Origin: Desulfonatronum lacustre DSM 10312
GTDB taxonomy: Bacteria; Desulfobacterota; Desulfovibrionia; Desulfovibrionales; Desulfonatronaceae
Reading direction: 5' to 3'
Assembly: GCF_000519265.1 (NCBI RefSeq)
Contig: NZ_KI912608.1
Location: forward strand, 2,637,313 to 2,701,312
Length of the DNA stretch: 64,000 nt
Both the position numbers and the translations under genes were made by a program. How positions within the stretch are numbered: the stretch's first letter is position 1; each line of letters begins with the position of its first letter. Shown here in pieces: positions 47,897 through 55,323 of the stretch. The notes under the pieces were generated by a model, which worked only from the letters and a program-made list of their open reading frames with translations, was not told where the DNA came from and ran no database searches.

Positions 47897-48003
47897 CAGG
47901 TGGACTCCTATCAGTATGTCAGGTCAAAGTTCTAAACGGGACCTGGGACAGGGCAGACCTTGAACCCCTGGTTCCCGAAACAGTAGCGTTGATGTCAGGT
48001 GGA

Positions 48004-48288
48004 ATAAACAGTCTATCCATTGCCCATTTCGTCGGATTATTGCCAATGCATTCCTGGAGCCGACTCCATTCGGACTCCTTGCGGATAATGTGTTCCCAAT
48101 GATTCCGTTGCCGTAATTTACCCAGAATGGTGCGGGGTTGGTTTTGGTTTATCCATTTCAACCCTTGGTGTACACAACGATTTATATCCCCCAACAATCT
48201 CGCCCATCGTAGGAGCACCCCTTGCGGGTGCCCCTACAACCACAATAATGCCGTGGATATGGGTCGGCACGACGGCAAACCCATCTAA
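48004..48288 (-). pseudogene. Remnant of REP-associated (Y1, IS200-like) transposase
   Basis: Reading from 48288 downward, one frame gives DGFAVVPTHIHGIIVVVGAP, holding the HUH metal motif of Y1 transposases, then TMGEIVGGYKSLCT. After a frame change near 48120 it reads KLRQRNHWEHIIRKESEWSR and IGNNPTKWAMDRL, the family C-terminus (usually RNYYEHIIRNE...NNPxKWxxD). The N-terminus is missing, cut by the MITE-like element at 48289. The catalytic Tyr position is not preserved as RNYYEH (RNHWEH). A palindromic repeat copy lies inside the reading frame. It is dead as an enzyme. Confidence 0.82.
48209..48237. repeat. GTAGGGGC-type palindromic repeat, copy 5, inside the transposase remnant
   Basis: GTAGGAGCACCC and GGGTGCCCCTAC around CTTGC. 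In the transposase frame it encodes VGAPARGAPT. This places a REP-like palindrome within the gene of a REP-type transposase. Confidence 0.8.
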
Positions 48289-48755: not shown

Positions 48756-50615
48756 TTATAAATCCTCCGCACTCCGGTCCATGGGCACGGCCAGGCTCAG
48801 AAATCTGTCGGATTCCGAGAACATCAATCGCTTGTCCACCATCATCCGCAAAAAGCCGTCCAGTTTGTCCGCGGCCAGGTGGGGGAGCAGGGATTGGATT
48901 TGGTTTCTGGTGCGGCTTTTTCGGCAGAAGAGGTAGATGCGGCGTGAAGCTTGGGGCAGGCGGTGGGTGTCGTGGGTTTTGTCCGGGCGGCGGAGGGTGA
49001 TGATCAGGAAGTCCGCGCCGTCCTGGTAGCCCAGGATCGGGCCGGGATTCGGCCCGCGCATGGATTGGGCGTATTCCCTGGCCCACTGTCTTGCCCGGTG
49101 CTCCACCGGTCGCCACAACCTGCGCTGCTCCCGCTTGCCGCCGACGTACCCCTGCACCATGAAGCGGAGGGTCCGGGCGATTTGAGGAGGAAACAGGACG
49201 CTCCAGCGCGGGTCGTTGCCCGTCAGGCGGATTCCGTGGCCGCGCGGATCGCGGAATACCGGGCTTCCCAGGCCCAGCCAGAAGAATACCGGACGCAGGG
49301 GCAGGTAGAGGGCGACGAATTCCATGTTGGCCAGGGTTTCTTGGACTTCTTGGGCCGTGGAGCCGGGAAAACGCATCAGCAGGTTGCCGCCGTGATGGAT
49401 GCCCAGGGCCTCACAGTGGCGCATGACCTCGATGTTGTCCAGGGCGCTGGTGCCCTTGTTCATCCTGGCCAGCAGGGCGCTGCTCAAGGCCTCGACGCCT
49501 ACCTGGACTTCGCGCATCCCGGCCCGGCGCATGGCCGCGAGCAGGGTCGGGGGCGTGTCGGCCCGGATTTCGCCGAACAGTCGGTAGTCCCTGCCGGATT
49601 CGGCCAGCGTGGTGAACAATTCCGTCGCGCCCTTGCGGGGCAGCAGGTTATCCATAAAGGAAAAGCCCAGCACCTTGTGCCGGGTGCTCAGGGCGGTGAT
49701 TTCCTCCGCGACCTTGCGCGGGGATTTGGACCGGTATCCGGTCCAGTGCCGGTTCAGGTTGCAGAACGCACAGCCCTGAGCCGGGCGGTCTGGGTCCGGC
49801 TTCTTGATCCACCAGCAACCCCTGGAGGCCTCCACCGGAAGCACGGGATGAAACTGTTTCGCCGGGCCAAGAGATTGCAGTTGGGCGAAATAGTCGTCGA
49901 AGTCCGGTATGGGCAGATCGTCCAAATCCCGGATTTGGCGGTTGAGGCCGTCCGGGAGGGGTTTTCGCGCAGCCCCTTGGTTCCGACACAGGGCGTCCGT
50001 CAGCTCGGCCAGGTCCGTTTCCCCTTCTCCCTGGGTCAGGTAATCGATCTCCGGAAACGCGGCGGTCAGGGCCACGAAGGATTCGCCGGAAAAACCGGCC
50101 CCGCCGACCACGACGGGCAGTTCCGGATATTTTCGCTTGATGCGCCGGATCAGAACCAGGGAGCAGGTCGACTGGCACAGGGAGACGCTGAACCCGGCCA
50201 GACCGAACGCGGTCCAGTCGATGTCGGCGATGAACCGGTCGCAGGCCGTGTCCAGGGCCTGGGCCAGAGCCGGCAGCCCCACGGCGCGGATGGCCGGGTT
50301 TTGCCTGCTTTCCCGCTCGAAGAGCCGCTGAATGGCCGGACCCTGGTCCGGAAAGAGCAAGGTCGCGGCCACGCTTTCCGCGACCCAGGTTCGCTCGGAA
50401 ATGACTTGATACAAGGTGTAGCCGACGGCCGCAGCCACATGAAGATGAACATGCTCCGCCCGGACCGGCACGTCGGGGAACCGGCGGCGCAGGTGGGCCT
50501 TGAGCGTGCCGAGCTGGATGGAGGGCCGGTTGTACATGGCCCAGGGCGCGGAAACGAGTATGAGCGGACGGGGGGAGATTATTCCGGCTTCAGGCTTGTG
50601 TTCGGCTGTGTGCAT
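48756..50615 (-). CDS. B12-binding radical SAM protein of the RiPP-maturation type (TIGR03975-like)
   Basis: 619 residues. N-terminal cobalamin-binding-like domain (about 15-210, with PELPVVVGGAGFSGE and DYLTQGEGETDL), then a radical SAM domain. SAM-cluster cysteines are Cys267, Cys282 and Cys285 (SRGCWW then GCAFCNLN), giving C-x14-C-x2-C instead of the usual short spacing. TGYRSKSPRKVAEEI, FMDNLLPRKGATELF and VGVEALSSALLARMNKGTSA match the rSAM_ocin_1 pattern, which modifies ribosomal peptides. No precursor peptide was found beside it. Start ATG 50615 has no strong ribosome site. It is divergent from the small membrane-protein gene. Confidence 0.75.
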   Translation of the reverse strand: MHTAEHKPEAGIISPRPLILVSAPWAMYNRPSIQLGTLKAHLRRRFPDVPVRAEHVHLHVAAAVGYTLYQVISERTWVAESVAATLLFPDQGPAIQRLFERESRQNPAIRAVGLPALAQALDTACDRFIADIDWTAFGLAGFSVSLCQSTCSLVLIRRIKRKYPELPVVVGGAGFSGESFVALTAAFPEIDYLTQGEGETDLAELTDALCRNQGAARKPLPDGLNRQIRDLDDLPIPDFDDYFAQLQSLGPAKQFHPVLPVEASRGCWWIKKPDPDRPAQGCAFCNLNRHWTGYRSKSPRKVAEEITALSTRHKVLGFSFMDNLLPRKGATELFTTLAESGRDYRLFGEIRADTPPTLLAAMRRAGMREVQVGVEALSSALLARMNKGTSALDNIEVMRHCEALGIHHGGNLLMRFPGSTAQEVQETLANMEFVALYLPLRPVFFWLGLGSPVFRDPRGHGIRLTGNDPRWSVLFPPQIARTLRFMVQGYVGGKREQRRLWRPVEHRARQWAREYAQSMRGPNPGPILGYQDGADFLIITLRRPDKTHDTHRLPQASRRIYLFCRKSRTRNQIQSLLPHLAADKLDGFLRMMVDKRLMFSESDRFLSLAVPMDRSAEDL

Positions 50616-50897: not shown

Positions 50898-51056
50898 ATG
50901 GGCATTACGGAAATCATCCCCACTTTGATCGCCAACGCGGCCAAGGAAGCCGATCTTTCCAGCGTAATCGGCGTCGGGTTCATCTTCACCTATCTGACCG
51001 TGATCGTGATCACCGCGCTTGTCCGCATCAAGCAGGGCAAGCACATGGATCACTAA
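50898..51056 (+). CDS. Small single-span membrane protein
   Basis: 52 residues: MGITEIIPTLIANAAKEADL, then one hydrophobic helix (VIGVGFIFTYLTVIVITALV) and a basic tail RIKQGKHMDH. AAAGGAG lies 8 bases before ATG 50898, one of the best ribosome sites in the window, and a terminator follows, so it looks like a real monocistronic gene. The topology is reminiscent of OadG-like gamma subunits of sodium pumps, but it is too short to assign. Divergent from the radical SAM gene. Confidence 0.7.
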   Translation: MGITEIIPTLIANAAKEADLSSVIGVGFIFTYLTVIVITALVRIKQGKHMDH

Positions 51057-51205: not shown

Positions 51206-52078
51206 ATGCAATTGCGACTCAGCTCCATGCGGCGGGAGAATTTCGCCTCGGGGCAACGTCTGGCCGTGGTACGCGGTCCGGTTTTGGAGCCGGATACGGC
51301 TTCGGGCCTGTTTCCCGGCCCGCACCTGATCGCGGAAACGCCACCGTTGCCCGGCGTGGGCGCTGTCTTGGCCCGACCCGGCGAAGCCGGGAGCCTTCGG
51401 GTGCTGGGCATGTTCCGTTGGCCGGATCCCGTTGGCGGTCTGCCGAGCCGTGAGGGCTGCTGGGTCCAGGTGTTGGAAGCGTTCCAGGTTGAGCCGGGAG
51501 CGCAATCCTGGGCCGCGACAAAATGCGGCCACAGTCTGGCCTGGATCACGCTCAGCGACAAAGGCTACGTCGGACACCGCGAGGACCGGGCCGGGCCGCT
51601 GATCGTCGAGCTGCTGGACAAACAGACCGGCGGGCCCCTGGAACTGGCCTGGGCCCAAGGCTTTCTGCTTCCTGACGAGCCCGGAAGATTGCGCGCGCTG
51701 TTCACGGAACTGGCTCTGGAACAGGGCTTCGACCTGATCGTGACCACTGGGGGCACCGGGGTCGCGCCCCGGGACACCACCCCGGAAACCACCCTCTCCG
51801 TGATCGAAAAACGCCTGCCCGGCATGGAAGCGGCCATGCTCCAGGCCGGCCTGCGCAAGACCCCGCATGCCGTGATTTCCCGAGCCGTGGTCGGTATCCT
51901 GGGCCACGCCCTGATCATCAATTTGCCGGGTTCTCCCAAGGCGGTTCGGGAGAACCTCGAAGCCCTGCTGCCCGCTCTGGACCACACCCTGGCCAAGCTC
52001 CAGGGCGATCCCTCGGACTGCGCCACGGCGCATCCTCACGACGTCTCCCCCAACAATCACCCAGTGATTCCCGAATGA
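51206..52078 (+). CDS. MogA/MoaB-type molybdopterin adenylyltransferase domain protein
   Basis: 290 residues. The C-terminal 160 or so form a MoCF_biosynth domain: AWITLSDKGYVGHREDRAGP, the pterin-binding DLIVTTGGTGVAPRDTTPE, and INLPGSPKAVRENLEALLPA. MogA adenylylates molybdopterin before metal insertion, which AOR-type enzymes need. The N-terminal 115 residues are an extra beta-rich region of unknown role, not present in E. coli MogA (about 195 residues). The stop overlaps the next start (ATGA, 52075-52078), so it is translationally coupled to the nuclease-helicase gene. Confidence 0.85.
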   Translation: MQLRLSSMRRENFASGQRLAVVRGPVLEPDTASGLFPGPHLIAETPPLPGVGAVLARPGEAGSLRVLGMFRWPDPVGGLPSREGCWVQVLEAFQVEPGAQSWAATKCGHSLAWITLSDKGYVGHREDRAGPLIVELLDKQTGGPLELAWAQGFLLPDEPGRLRALFTELALEQGFDLIVTTGGTGVAPRDTTPETTLSVIEKRLPGMEAAMLQAGLRKTPHAVISRAVVGILGHALIINLPGSPKAVRENLEALLPALDHTLAKLQGDPSDCATAHPHDVSPNNHPVIPE

Positions 52079-55000
52079 CCTCCGACCTGTTCCGCGCGGA
52101 CCTGCATATCCACTCCCGGTATTCCCGGGCCACCAGCCGCGGCCTGACGCCGAGCCACCTGGCTGCCTGGGCCCGGGTCAAGGGTCTGGACGTGGTGGCC
52201 ACCGGAGACTTCACCCATCCCGGATGGCTGCAAGACCTTGAGGAATGTCTGGAAGAGGACGATTCCGGACTGCTGGTTCCGCGGCGGGAAGCGGACCTCT
52301 CGGCGGAGATCCCCTGGCTGGAGTCCGTTGCTCCGGGTCGCGGCGCAAGCCCGGTCCGGTTCATTCTCTCCGCGGAAATCAGCACCATCTACAAACGCGC
52401 GGGCCGGGTGCGCAAGGTCCATCATCTGGTGTACGTCCCCGGTCTGGAGCAGGCCAGGGCGTTGAACGCCAAGTTGGAACAAATCGGCAATCTGGGTTCG
52501 GACGGTCGGCCCATCCTCGGGCTGGACTCGCGCCATCTCCTGGAAATGGTCCTGGAGCTGCACCCCCAGGCCTTTCTCGTCCCCGCGCATATCTGGACGC
52601 CCTGGTTTTCCCTGTTCGGTTCCAAGTCCGGCTTCGACACCATTGAGGCGTGCTACGGAGCGCTGTCCTCGGAGATTTTCGCCCTGGAGACCGGGCTGTC
52701 CTCGGATCCGGACATGAACTGGCAGTGGAGCGCCCTGGACCGCTTCCGGATGATTTCCAATTCCGACGCCCATTCCGGGGAGAAGCTGGCCCGGGAGGCC
52801 AATCTGTTTCGCGGCGAGCCGAGCTTCGAGGGCATATACAAGGCCCTACGGGGCGACGGCGGGAGCCATGCCTTCCTGGGCACGGTGGAATTCTTTCCCG
52901 AGGAGGGCAAGTATCATTTGGACGGGCATCGCAAGTGCGACGTGGTCCTGTCCCCCGGAGAAGCCATGGCCCGGGGCAACATCTGCCCGGTTTGCGGCCA
53001 GCCCCTGACCCTGGGCGTGCTGCATCGGGTAATGGAATTGGCCGACCGGGACCAGCCGCTGAAGCCGTCCAATCAGCCTGGATTTCAGTCCCTGGTGCCC
53101 TTGGTGGAGTTGATTTCGGAAATCCTGGGCAAAGGCCCGGGTACCAAGACCGTGCGCCGGGAATACGCGGCCCTGGTCTCGGCTCATGGCTCGGAGCTGG
53201 ACATTCTCGGCGAGCTGCCCCTGGACGACATGGCCCGTCGCCGCCCGGCCCTGGCCGAATCGTTGCGCCGGATGCGCCAGGGCCTCGTGCTGCGCCGATC
53301 CGGATATGACGGACATTTCGGCACGATTTCCATGTTCACGCCCCAAGAACAGCGGGAACTGCGCGGAGGCCGCGCTTTTTTCGCGACGCCGCCCGCAGAG
53401 GCTCAACCCGTGGATGCTCAACCCTCGGCTGCCGAGCCACAATCTTCCTATGGGGCCGTCCCCCCATCGCGAATCCCATCGGAGCCTTCGGACAAAGGCG
53501 CACGGCCCGAAGCCCGGATGGAGTTCAACGCGGAACAGGGCCGGGCCTTGCGGGCCGGGCCGCGGCCGGTGTTGGTCCTGGCCGGGCCGGGCACGGGCAA
53601 GACCAGGACCTTGATGGGCCGGATCGCCTATTTGTTGCAAAAAGGGGAACAGCCCCGGCGGATGCTGGTGGTCACCTTTACCCGGCGGGCGGCCAATGAA
53701 CTCCGCGAACGACTCATCGCCACTCAGGGCGAGGAAGAAGCCCTGCCCCAGGCGGACACCCTGCACGCCGCGGCCTACGAGGTCTGGACCAGGGTCCAGG
53801 GCGACGCCCCGGTGTTGCTCTCCGAGGACGCGGCCCGGCGGGTTTTCGCCGCAGCCAATCCGGAACTCGGTCCAGCCGGGGTGAAGCAGGCCTGGAACGA
53901 ACTCTCCCGTGCCAGGGAGAGCCGCGTGGTGTCCGACCGTGCCGAGGGCGCGGCGGAAAGGGCGGAACGTGCCGCCCGGTACGCCCGCCAGAAGCAGGAT
54001 TGGAACCTGGTCGACTACACGGACCTGCTGGAGTTCTGGCTGGCCCAGGCCACCGAGGAGCGCGCCCATCACCCGTATACGCACATCCTGGTGGACGAGG
54101 TGCAGGACCTTTCCCGGCTCCAGTGGGAACTGCTTCAGGCCCTCGCCCCCCAGGACGGCTCCGGGTTCTGGGCCATCGGCGACCCCCGTCAGAGCATCTA
54201 TGGTTTTCGGGGCGCGGTGGACGACATCGCCGCGACCATGCGTGCTCGCTGGCCCGATCTGGAGGTCGTCTCCCTGAGCCGAAATTACCGCTCCACGGAA
54301 AACCTGGTGCGTCTCTCAGGGAAGGTGTTTCCGGGCGAGCAAGGCCTGTTGGCCGAAAATCCGCATGCGGGGCGGATCGCCCTGTTTCAGGCCTCCAGCG
54401 CGGCCCGGGAGGCCGCCTGGATCGCCGACCAAACGCGGACGCTGTTGGGCGGGAGCGCCCATTGGGAAGCGGATCGGGGAACTCAGGGCGGCCTGAGCCC
54501 CGGAGACGTGGCGGTGCTGGTCCGGATCAAGGCCTTGATTCCGCCCATCGTTCAGGCCATGCAGCGCCTCGGGGTGCCTTGTTCCGCGCCCGAATCCGAG
54601 CCGTTCTGGAAAGAACCCAGGGTCGCCCTGCTGTTGCAGGCCGCTGCGGAACTGCTGGGGCTCGGTCGGGCGGAGGATGCGGACCAGGAAGTCCTTACAC
54701 GGCATGTTCAGGGTCACGTTCTGGAACAGGCCCTGGTGCAGGGACCCGTGGCCCTGGCGGCCCATTTGCAGGAAGTGCCGCCCTTTGATCGCCTGTTCTG
54801 GCAAAGCAAGGAATTTTTGCGTCTCAAGGAGGCCTACGCCCGGCACAAGGGCTGGGCCGGGCTGCTGACCTGGATCAACTTCCACACCGAACTGGAACTG
54901 GTCCGCGCCCGGGCCGAAACCGTCCAGGTGATGACCCTGCACGCCTCCAAGGGGCTGGAGTTCGAGGCTGTCTTTTTGCCGGCCCTGGAAGACGGTCTGT

Positions 55001-55323
55001 TGCCCATGGTGGGGCTTGGTCCGCTGGGGGGGCATCGGGACGCCGAGGAACCTCCCCAGGAAGGCGTCATTGGTCCGCTATCCAGTTTGCCATCCAGTTT
55101 TCTCGGGGATCTGGAAGAGGAGCGGCGGCTGTTCTATGTCGGGTTGACCAGGGCCAGGCAATGGCTGTTTCTCAGCCATGCGGAAAAACGCAATCTGTTC
55201 GGTCGAACCTTGCGGCTCAAGCCGTCGCGTTTCCTGGGGGACCTGCCCCGGGAAGAGATGCGATGCAGCAAGACTGTGCAGCAGGTGGTCCGGCGGGAAA
55301 AGCGGATGACGTTATTTTCTTGA
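52075..55323 (+). CDS. Endonuclease Q-like PHP domain fused to UvrD/PcrA-type helicase
   Basis: 1082 residues. Residues 1-430 are a PHP nuclease of the TIGR00375/EndoQ type: metal-binding FRADLHIHSRYS, VATGDFTHPGWL, ILSAEISTIYK, VPAHIWTPWFSLFGS and ISNSDAHSG, then a zinc-binding segment with Cys288, Cys304 and Cys307 (CPVCGQPL). A Pro/Ala-rich linker (about 440-480) leads to an SF1A helicase with Walker A GPGTGKTRT (Lys509), HILVDEVQDLS, GDPRQSIYGFRGA, TLHASKGLEFEAVF and YVGLTRAR. EndoQ nicks DNA 5' of deaminated bases; the fused helicase could unwind from the nick. Probably a DNA repair enzyme. Confidence 0.88.
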   Translation: MTSDLFRADLHIHSRYSRATSRGLTPSHLAAWARVKGLDVVATGDFTHPGWLQDLEECLEEDDSGLLVPRREADLSAEIPWLESVAPGRGASPVRFILSAEISTIYKRAGRVRKVHHLVYVPGLEQARALNAKLEQIGNLGSDGRPILGLDSRHLLEMVLELHPQAFLVPAHIWTPWFSLFGSKSGFDTIEACYGALSSEIFALETGLSSDPDMNWQWSALDRFRMISNSDAHSGEKLAREANLFRGEPSFEGIYKALRGDGGSHAFLGTVEFFPEEGKYHLDGHRKCDVVLSPGEAMARGNICPVCGQPLTLGVLHRVMELADRDQPLKPSNQPGFQSLVPLVELISEILGKGPGTKTVRREYAALVSAHGSELDILGELPLDDMARRRPALAESLRRMRQGLVLRRSGYDGHFGTISMFTPQEQRELRGGRAFFATPPAEAQPVDAQPSAAEPQSSYGAVPPSRIPSEPSDKGARPEARMEFNAEQGRALRAGPRPVLVLAGPGTGKTRTLMGRIAYLLQKGEQPRRMLVVTFTRRAANELRERLIATQGEEEALPQADTLHAAAYEVWTRVQGDAPVLLSEDAARRVFAAANPELGPAGVKQAWNELSRARESRVVSDRAEGAAERAERAARYARQKQDWNLVDYTDLLEFWLAQATEERAHHPYTHILVDEVQDLSRLQWELLQALAPQDGSGFWAIGDPRQSIYGFRGAVDDIAATMRARWPDLEVVSLSRNYRSTENLVRLSGKVFPGEQGLLAENPHAGRIALFQASSAAREAAWIADQTRTLLGGSAHWEADRGTQGGLSPGDVAVLVRIKALIPPIVQAMQRLGVPCSAPESEPFWKEPRVALLLQAAAELLGLGRAEDADQEVLTRHVQGHVLEQALVQGPVALAAHLQEVPPFDRLFWQSKEFLRLKEAYARHKGWAGLLTWINFHTELELVRARAETVQVMTLHASKGLEFEAVFLPALEDGLLPMVGLGPLGGHRDAEEPPQEGVIGPLSSLPSSFLGDLEEERRLFYVGLTRARQWLFLSHAEKRNLFGRTLRLKPSRFLGDLPREEMRCSKTVQQVVRREKRMTLFS

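Follow-up and report, generated by a model that had tools for sequence, protein, structure and literature searches.

A TIGR03975 radical SAM gene of Desulfonatronum with a variable cluster loop, no linked precursor and a possible role in trans in sulfite reducers

The gene analyzed here lies in a 64,000-nucleotide stretch of Desulfonatronum DNA (the window) and belongs to a branch of the TIGR03975 family, clade B. This branch appears to consist of solitary enzymes tied to sulfite reducers, in which a peptide-grasping kind of domain has been kept and no peptide is in view. Our tentative preference is for a stand-alone B12 radical SAM C-methyltransferase whose target, a protein or peptide of sulfite reducers, would be encoded elsewhere and modified in trans. 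What it methylates is probably a constant component of sulfite reducers and not an antibiotic-like peptide.

The gene and its protein

A search with TIGR03975 (RiPP maturation radical SAM C-methyltransferase), which a preliminary description of this DNA had proposed, places the protein in the family with a score of 354 bits (cut-off 281.85), with residues 19 to 610 aligned to profile positions 2 to 606. It is the one gene over the cut-off in its genome. Elsewhere in that genome (G000:C1:3703112-3705245), two adjoining radical SAM-like genes reach 99.6 and 42.7 bits, below the cut-off. Four comparisons among four Desulfonatronum genes gave dN/dS values of 0.21 to 0.27; the frame has therefore evolved under purifying selection. 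The features that we distinguish are collected in Table 1.

Table 1. Features of the TIGR03975 gene, in window positions
Feature	Position	Strand	Evidence or remark
CDS, 619 aa, TIGR03975 clade B B12-type radical SAM protein	48756..50615, stop codon within	-	
Cobalamin-binding domain, approximately residues 125-215	49971..50243	-	PF02310 27.2 bits, under the 32.1 cut-off; the full model matches B12 radical SAM structures in fold
Cys267 codon (first cluster cysteine, in SRGC)	49815..49817	-	Invariant in alignments
Cluster loop of variable length, 14 residues here (268-281), predicted to be flexible	49773..49814	-	4-55 residues in relatives; low pLDDT
Radical SAM core, residues 280-428	49332..49778	-	PF04055 53.7 bits, cut-off 29.5
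Cys282 codon (second cluster cysteine)	49770..49772	-	
Cys285 codon (third cluster cysteine); the clade-B signature N-L-N-x2-W occupies residues 286-291 behind it	49761..49763	-	
Predicted C-terminal winged-helix domain, RRE-like, residues 528-607	48795..49034	-	Model: 3 strands, 3 helices, wing; weak PqqD profile match

The assignment of the radical SAM core is based on the PF04055 score over the cut-off together with the three invariant cluster cysteines. For the N-terminal part, PF02310 stays below its cut-off in the window protein and reaches 32.7 bits in one relative (L105), and by eye no D-x-H-x-x-G motif was seen in the domain. The structure model, which has a mean pLDDT of 90.8 overall, returned OxsB, TsrM, MgmA, TokK, and CysS as the top Foldseek matches (E 2e-15 to 6e-11, TM about 0.4 to 0.5). 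As the matches to OxsB, TsrM, TokK, and CysS extend over more than 500 alignment columns, we assign a cobalamin-binding domain to the N-terminal part. Long N-terminal extensions in two relatives (L125 and L133) were considered as possible fusion partners and set aside, by eye, as frame left open; a Pfam scan of L125 found no extra domain. Among 135 pattern stretches considered in the search for viral copies, none was a relative.

The spacing of the cluster cysteines had been singled out beforehand. Cys267, Cys282, and Cys285 are indeed present in the translated frame as C-x14-C-x2-C, with KKPDPDRPAQ inside the first gap, and the spacing is thus CX14CX2C instead of the canonical CX3CX2C. What is not supported is that this is a peculiarity, as gaps of 4 to 55 residues are usual in the branch and the same spacing has been published for QueE. 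The CX14CX2C cluster motif of QueE has been described as canonical, its loop being extended (PMC4389238).

The cluster cysteines are all invariant, both across alignment A1 (29 sequences) and in 55 clade-B and 14 clade-A sequences. Across the 55 clade-B relatives, the gap between the first two cysteines measures 4 residues in 23 sequences, 8 or 9 in five, 12 to 17 in 25, and 55 in two. The 14 sequences of clade A, which are of the RiPP type, have x7 in ten, x4 in three, and x9 in one, in agreement with the moderately longer gap that had been noted for the ocin_1 family. A gap of 13 residues is the commonest among 80 near loci from named genomes (54 of them have it; these are the best 80 of at least 576 relatives), and within the genus Desulfonatronum the gap is 13, 14, or 55 residues. 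The longest stretch seen, 55 residues, occurs in two Desulfonatronum enzymes that otherwise look normal (L054:7010-8983 and L055:6671-8695).

When the gap lengths are grouped into classes (4; 7 to 9; 12 or more), only four changes of class are needed on the tree of 50 clade-B rows, which indicates that gap length is inherited and changes slowly. Prediction of the loop structure, suggested as a check in the preliminary description, gave a mean pLDDT of 55 over residues 271 to 280. With lengths of 4 to 55 residues in the branch, an inherited length, a loop of low pLDDT, and the precedent of QueE, the C-x14-C spacing is most simply an ordinary loop insertion.

The predicted C-terminal winged helix is common to clades A and B (hhalign probability 99.3). 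In VIA-align, the first two ranks are taken by two TbiB1-leader-peptide complexes (Z 8.4, rmsd 2.3 to 2.5, 73 to 75 residues aligned) and the third by TigE (Z 7.6), which carries an RRE, followed by general winged helices at 7.5 and lower. Under the rule applied, a difference of up to 1 Z is a tie, so TbiB1 at 8.4 is tied with the winged helices at 7.5, and the RRE likeness is a lead and not proof. A Foldseek search with the domain returned nothing under E 1e-3, and its matches were mostly winged helices and methyltransferases. DsrD ranked eighth in that search (E 0.12), is absent from the 50 VIA-align rows listed, and was set aside as a general winged-helix similarity.

A PqqD-like profile, for which 12 of 13 loci were used and one short locus was left out, was matched in hhalign by clade A at E 1.2e-4 (probability 54%) and by both clades together at 2.5e-4 (43%). 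The match of clade B was at E 0.004 (8%) over 19 columns, that is, one helix only; five further segments of these proteins gave E values of 0.03 to 0.26. According to the authors of RRE-Finder, its false positives include helix-turn-helix or winged-helix proteins and also radical SAM enzymes that have no RiPP context (PMC7470986). We describe the modeled domain as RRE-like, as a lead, and do not call it an RRE.

Two clades and their distribution

In a phylum sample of 395 Desulfobacterota genomes, with at most three candidates scored per genome, TIGR03975 exceeded its cut-off in 67, and the scores were bimodal. The high-score group, clade A, comprises 11 genomes with best scores of 586 to 662 bits, some with several copies. 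The low-score group, clade B, comprises 56 genomes at 284 to 403 bits, of which five were placed by score alone, and includes the window protein. A tree of 14 clade-A rows and 50 of the 55 clade-B alignment rows splits the two groups with an SH-aLRT of 100. Outside the genus, identity to the window protein is 37 to 48% in clade B and 25 to 31% in clade A, and the residues N286 and W291 are found in 55/55 clade-B and 0/14 clade-A sequences. The copies in G450 and G473, which were missed by the gene caller, bear the clade-B signature.

The phylum sample has, as a rule, one gene over the cut-off per genome, with up to three candidates scored in each. At the level of the class, seven of 348 genomes have a match over the cut-off, all of them members of the genus, in which seven of eight genomes carry the gene and each has one copy over the cut-off. 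The remaining genus genome (G002) has a 36-codon match to the C terminus of the gene at C98:6523-6630 (61%, stop counted), possibly a relic.

In the phylum sample, clade B is nearly restricted to genomes with dsrB. Among the 395 phylum genomes, dsrB was found in 55/56 with clade B versus 136/339 others (Fisher p 3e-18, a value that treats genomes as independent, which they are not, and so ignores kinship); 6 of the 11 clade-A genomes have it. Clade B is spread over 27 of the 55 dsrB-bearing families. The one clade-B genome without a dsrB match at E 1e-60 (G646) also has no dsrA over the cut-off, and seven other clade-B genomes of its family carry dsrB. Within the genus, dsrA is present and the enzyme absent in G002, and in G007, a genome outside the phylum sample that is 84% complete, the enzyme is present and no dsrA was found. 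On these data, therefore, neither the enzyme nor dsrA strictly requires the other, and common descent in sulfite-reducing orders could be the source of the dsrB pattern. CdhC is present in 52/56 clade-B genomes versus 198/339 others, and the Wood-Ljungdahl pathway was considered as an obligate partner. It was ruled out, as the genome that contains the window is without CdhC.

Genomic context

The preliminary description had noted no adjacent precursor, which is borne out at this locus and at the other loci examined. A survey took in 134 clade-B loci, some of them present in more than one collection, and the proteins form 56 clusters at 60% identity; no family recurs within five genes in more than nine clusters. 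The commonest, found in nine of the 56, is response-regulator-like by eye and scattered in position. None of the 25 most recurrent families of small ORFs within 2.5 kb of 135 loci was recognized as precursor-like, and by eye nearly all of them resemble other frames of neighboring genes; a 115-aa gene follows the enzyme gene in seven loci of that survey. Behind the enzyme gene, nine loci have genes of unrelated kinds (TPR, CsgG, S1, epimerase, CofD, and DUF4198, with three lacking a match).

When the window locus is compared with six other Desulfonatronum loci, DNA matches at E 1e-5 do not reach beyond the gene. The exception is about 170 extra similar bases behind it that are common to the window and G005, and no reading frame common to the two was found there. 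Other loci of the genus do have neighbors in common, L054 and L055 before the gene and L052, L053, and L055 in an epimerase behind it. As observed across the seven loci L049 to L055, the window neighborhood is unlike that of the other six species, though two of the copies are 87 to 88% identical to the window gene.

The surroundings in the window contain some features that deserve mention in their own right. Divergent from the enzyme gene, a 52-aa hydrophobic ORF on the plus strand (50898-51056), with a good ribosome-binding site by eye, precedes a MoCF_biosynth (PF00994) gene; its residues 4 to 52 have no match in Pfam or NCBIfam. A UvrD-type helicase is encoded at 52075-55323 (+), the long N-terminal part of which is PHP-like, with a weak PHP_C match only. 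At 47919-48218 (-), a 99-aa ORF with an NPTKW stretch and no Pfam match stands beside a short palindrome at about 48210-48240, and looks like the remnant of a REP-associated transposase.

Leader peptides of two families, NHLP and Nif11, were sought genome-wide, as had been suggested, and neither is present in the genome that contains the window. NHLP leaders are found in 0/62 clade-B genomes and in four of 11 clade-A genomes, three of them over the cut-off. Nif11 matches occur in 4/62 clade-B genomes (three over the cut-off), at least 39 kb from the gene or on other contigs, and in 5/11 clade-A genomes; four of these five have their closest copy no more than about 2.1 kb from the enzyme gene. 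Separate PqqD-family matches are present in three of the eight Desulfonatronum genomes, away from the enzyme locus (G001:C84:20616-20780, G003:C4:226575-226739, and G004:C2:99362-99526), and none was found in the genome of the window.

The view of the gene as a RiPP-type radical SAM/B12 protein is thus to be retained in part. The protein is of the B12 type, scores over the TIGR03975 cut-off, and has an RRE-like domain in common with RiPP-type members. The RiPP role itself has become doubtful, as precursor-like ORFs and recurrent partners are missing from the surveyed loci, NHLP leaders from all clade-B genomes searched, and Nif11 leaders from the vicinity of the gene. The better half of the earlier interpretation is that the substrate may be encoded elsewhere or may not be a peptide.

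Function and alternatives

In B12 radical SAM methylases, SAM is converted to a 5'-deoxyadenosyl radical, the substrate carbon loses a hydrogen, and methylcobalamin gives the methyl group. By the same route, the three cysteines of the window protein would bind a [4Fe-4S] cluster, SAM bound to that cluster would be cleaved, and the resulting 5'-deoxyadenosyl radical would abstract hydrogen from an unreactive substrate carbon, with methylcobalamin of the N-terminal domain as the likely methyl donor. The stretched loop between the first two cysteines would be an insertion tolerated at the surface rather than a new cluster. The RRE-like winged helix would most likely grip a peptide stretch of the substrate, and the acceptor would be a protein or peptide of sulfite-reducing anaerobes that is encoded away from the enzyme gene. 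That the substrate includes a peptide stretch is suggested by the RRE-like domain, and that the enzyme acts in trans by the lack of a linked precursor.

It is rather unlikely that the gene instead encodes a C-methyltransferase for a small molecule, lipid, or cofactor of anaerobic metabolism, with the winged helix as a structural element or relic. OxsB, TokK, CysS, BchE, HpnJ, and HpnR have small molecules or lipids as substrates; the first three are related by structure matches and the last three by profile matches, and the winged-helix matches are unspecific, all of which would suit such a role. However, the C-terminal domain is conserved and common with RiPP-type relatives, and no biosynthetic partner genes recur nearby.

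A genuine RiPP maturase, with a precursor of an undescribed leader family elsewhere in the genome and a C-terminal RRE that binds the leader, seems unlikely. It would account for the score over the TIGR03975 cut-off, for the C-terminal domain held in common with RiPP-type members, and for the top rank of RRE structures, and separate PqqD-family matches exist in the genus, although none in the genome of the window. Yet the gene is single as a rule, with one copy over the cut-off in each genus genome that has it. Across the 62 clade-B genomes NHLP leaders are absent and Nif11 leaders are few and not near the gene, and no precursor-like small ORF or recurrent partner was seen at the surveyed loci. 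The spread over so many dsrB-bearing families is also unlike secondary metabolism. Lastly, it is highly improbable that the long C-x14-C gap signals an inactive enzyme or an altered cluster, for its departure from the canonical motif and the low model confidence in the loop are outweighed by cysteines that are invariant throughout, purifying selection on the frame, and gaps of 4 to 55 residues among relatives that share the same core.

Returning to the reading of a stand-alone methyltransferase acting in trans, it is speculation, resting on co-occurrence, that the acceptor belongs to sulfite reduction. Mmp10, like MgmA, methylates methyl-coenzyme M reductase. By analogy, clade B might C-methylate a residue of the sulfite-reduction machinery (e.g., DsrAB or DsrC) as a counterpart of MgmA and Mmp10, a proposal that we regard as a long shot. 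If it were true, many Desulfobacterota genes named "RiPP maturation" by TIGR03975 would be misnamed. The modification of a core sulfate-reduction protein would be an overlooked post-translational methylation in a main anaerobic respiration, and the modification of an unlinked peptide would be an unusual organization of a RiPP pathway. In both cases, RiPP pathways in Desulfobacterota may be overcounted where the count is based on the TIGR03975 profile. In literature search listings, TIGR03975 appeared only in papers on other subjects, nothing was found that connects B12 radical SAM enzymes with sulfate reducers or Desulfobacterota, and among the matches listed for Dsr together with radical SAM, none deals with Dsr.

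Comparison with known systems

The closest comparison is with clade A (ocin_1). Like its members, the window protein aligns in full length over the TIGR03975 cut-off and has SRGCWW, the three cluster cysteines, and the C-terminal domain. Clade A differs in a gap of x4 to x9, in FC[GS] where clade B has FCNLNxxW, and in its 25 to 31% identity to the window protein. It differs also in context, with Nif11 matches beside the enzyme gene in 4/11 genomes and in 0/62 of clade B. With RREs such as TbiB1 and PqqD, the modeled window domain has in common three strands, three helices, and a wing, as well as the first rows in VIA-align; the difference is that this match is tied with other winged helices and that the PqqD profile match is weak. 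QueE, which has no B12 domain, belongs to a different radical SAM family and resembles the window protein in the CX14CX2C spacing only.

MgmA is similar to the window protein in fold (Foldseek E 4e-13), whereas sequence similarity is remote: TIGR04014, named "methyl-coenzyme M reductase glutamine C-methyltransferase," gives 31 bits in the window protein against a cut-off of 360. MgmA is described as a B12 radical SAM enzyme whose target is methyl-coenzyme M reductase, in which it methylates a glutamine, and its cleft could accommodate a peptide; the modified protein is a core energy enzyme and not a RiPP (PMC11796369). MgmA shows that core anaerobic metabolism can be served by enzymes of this kind.
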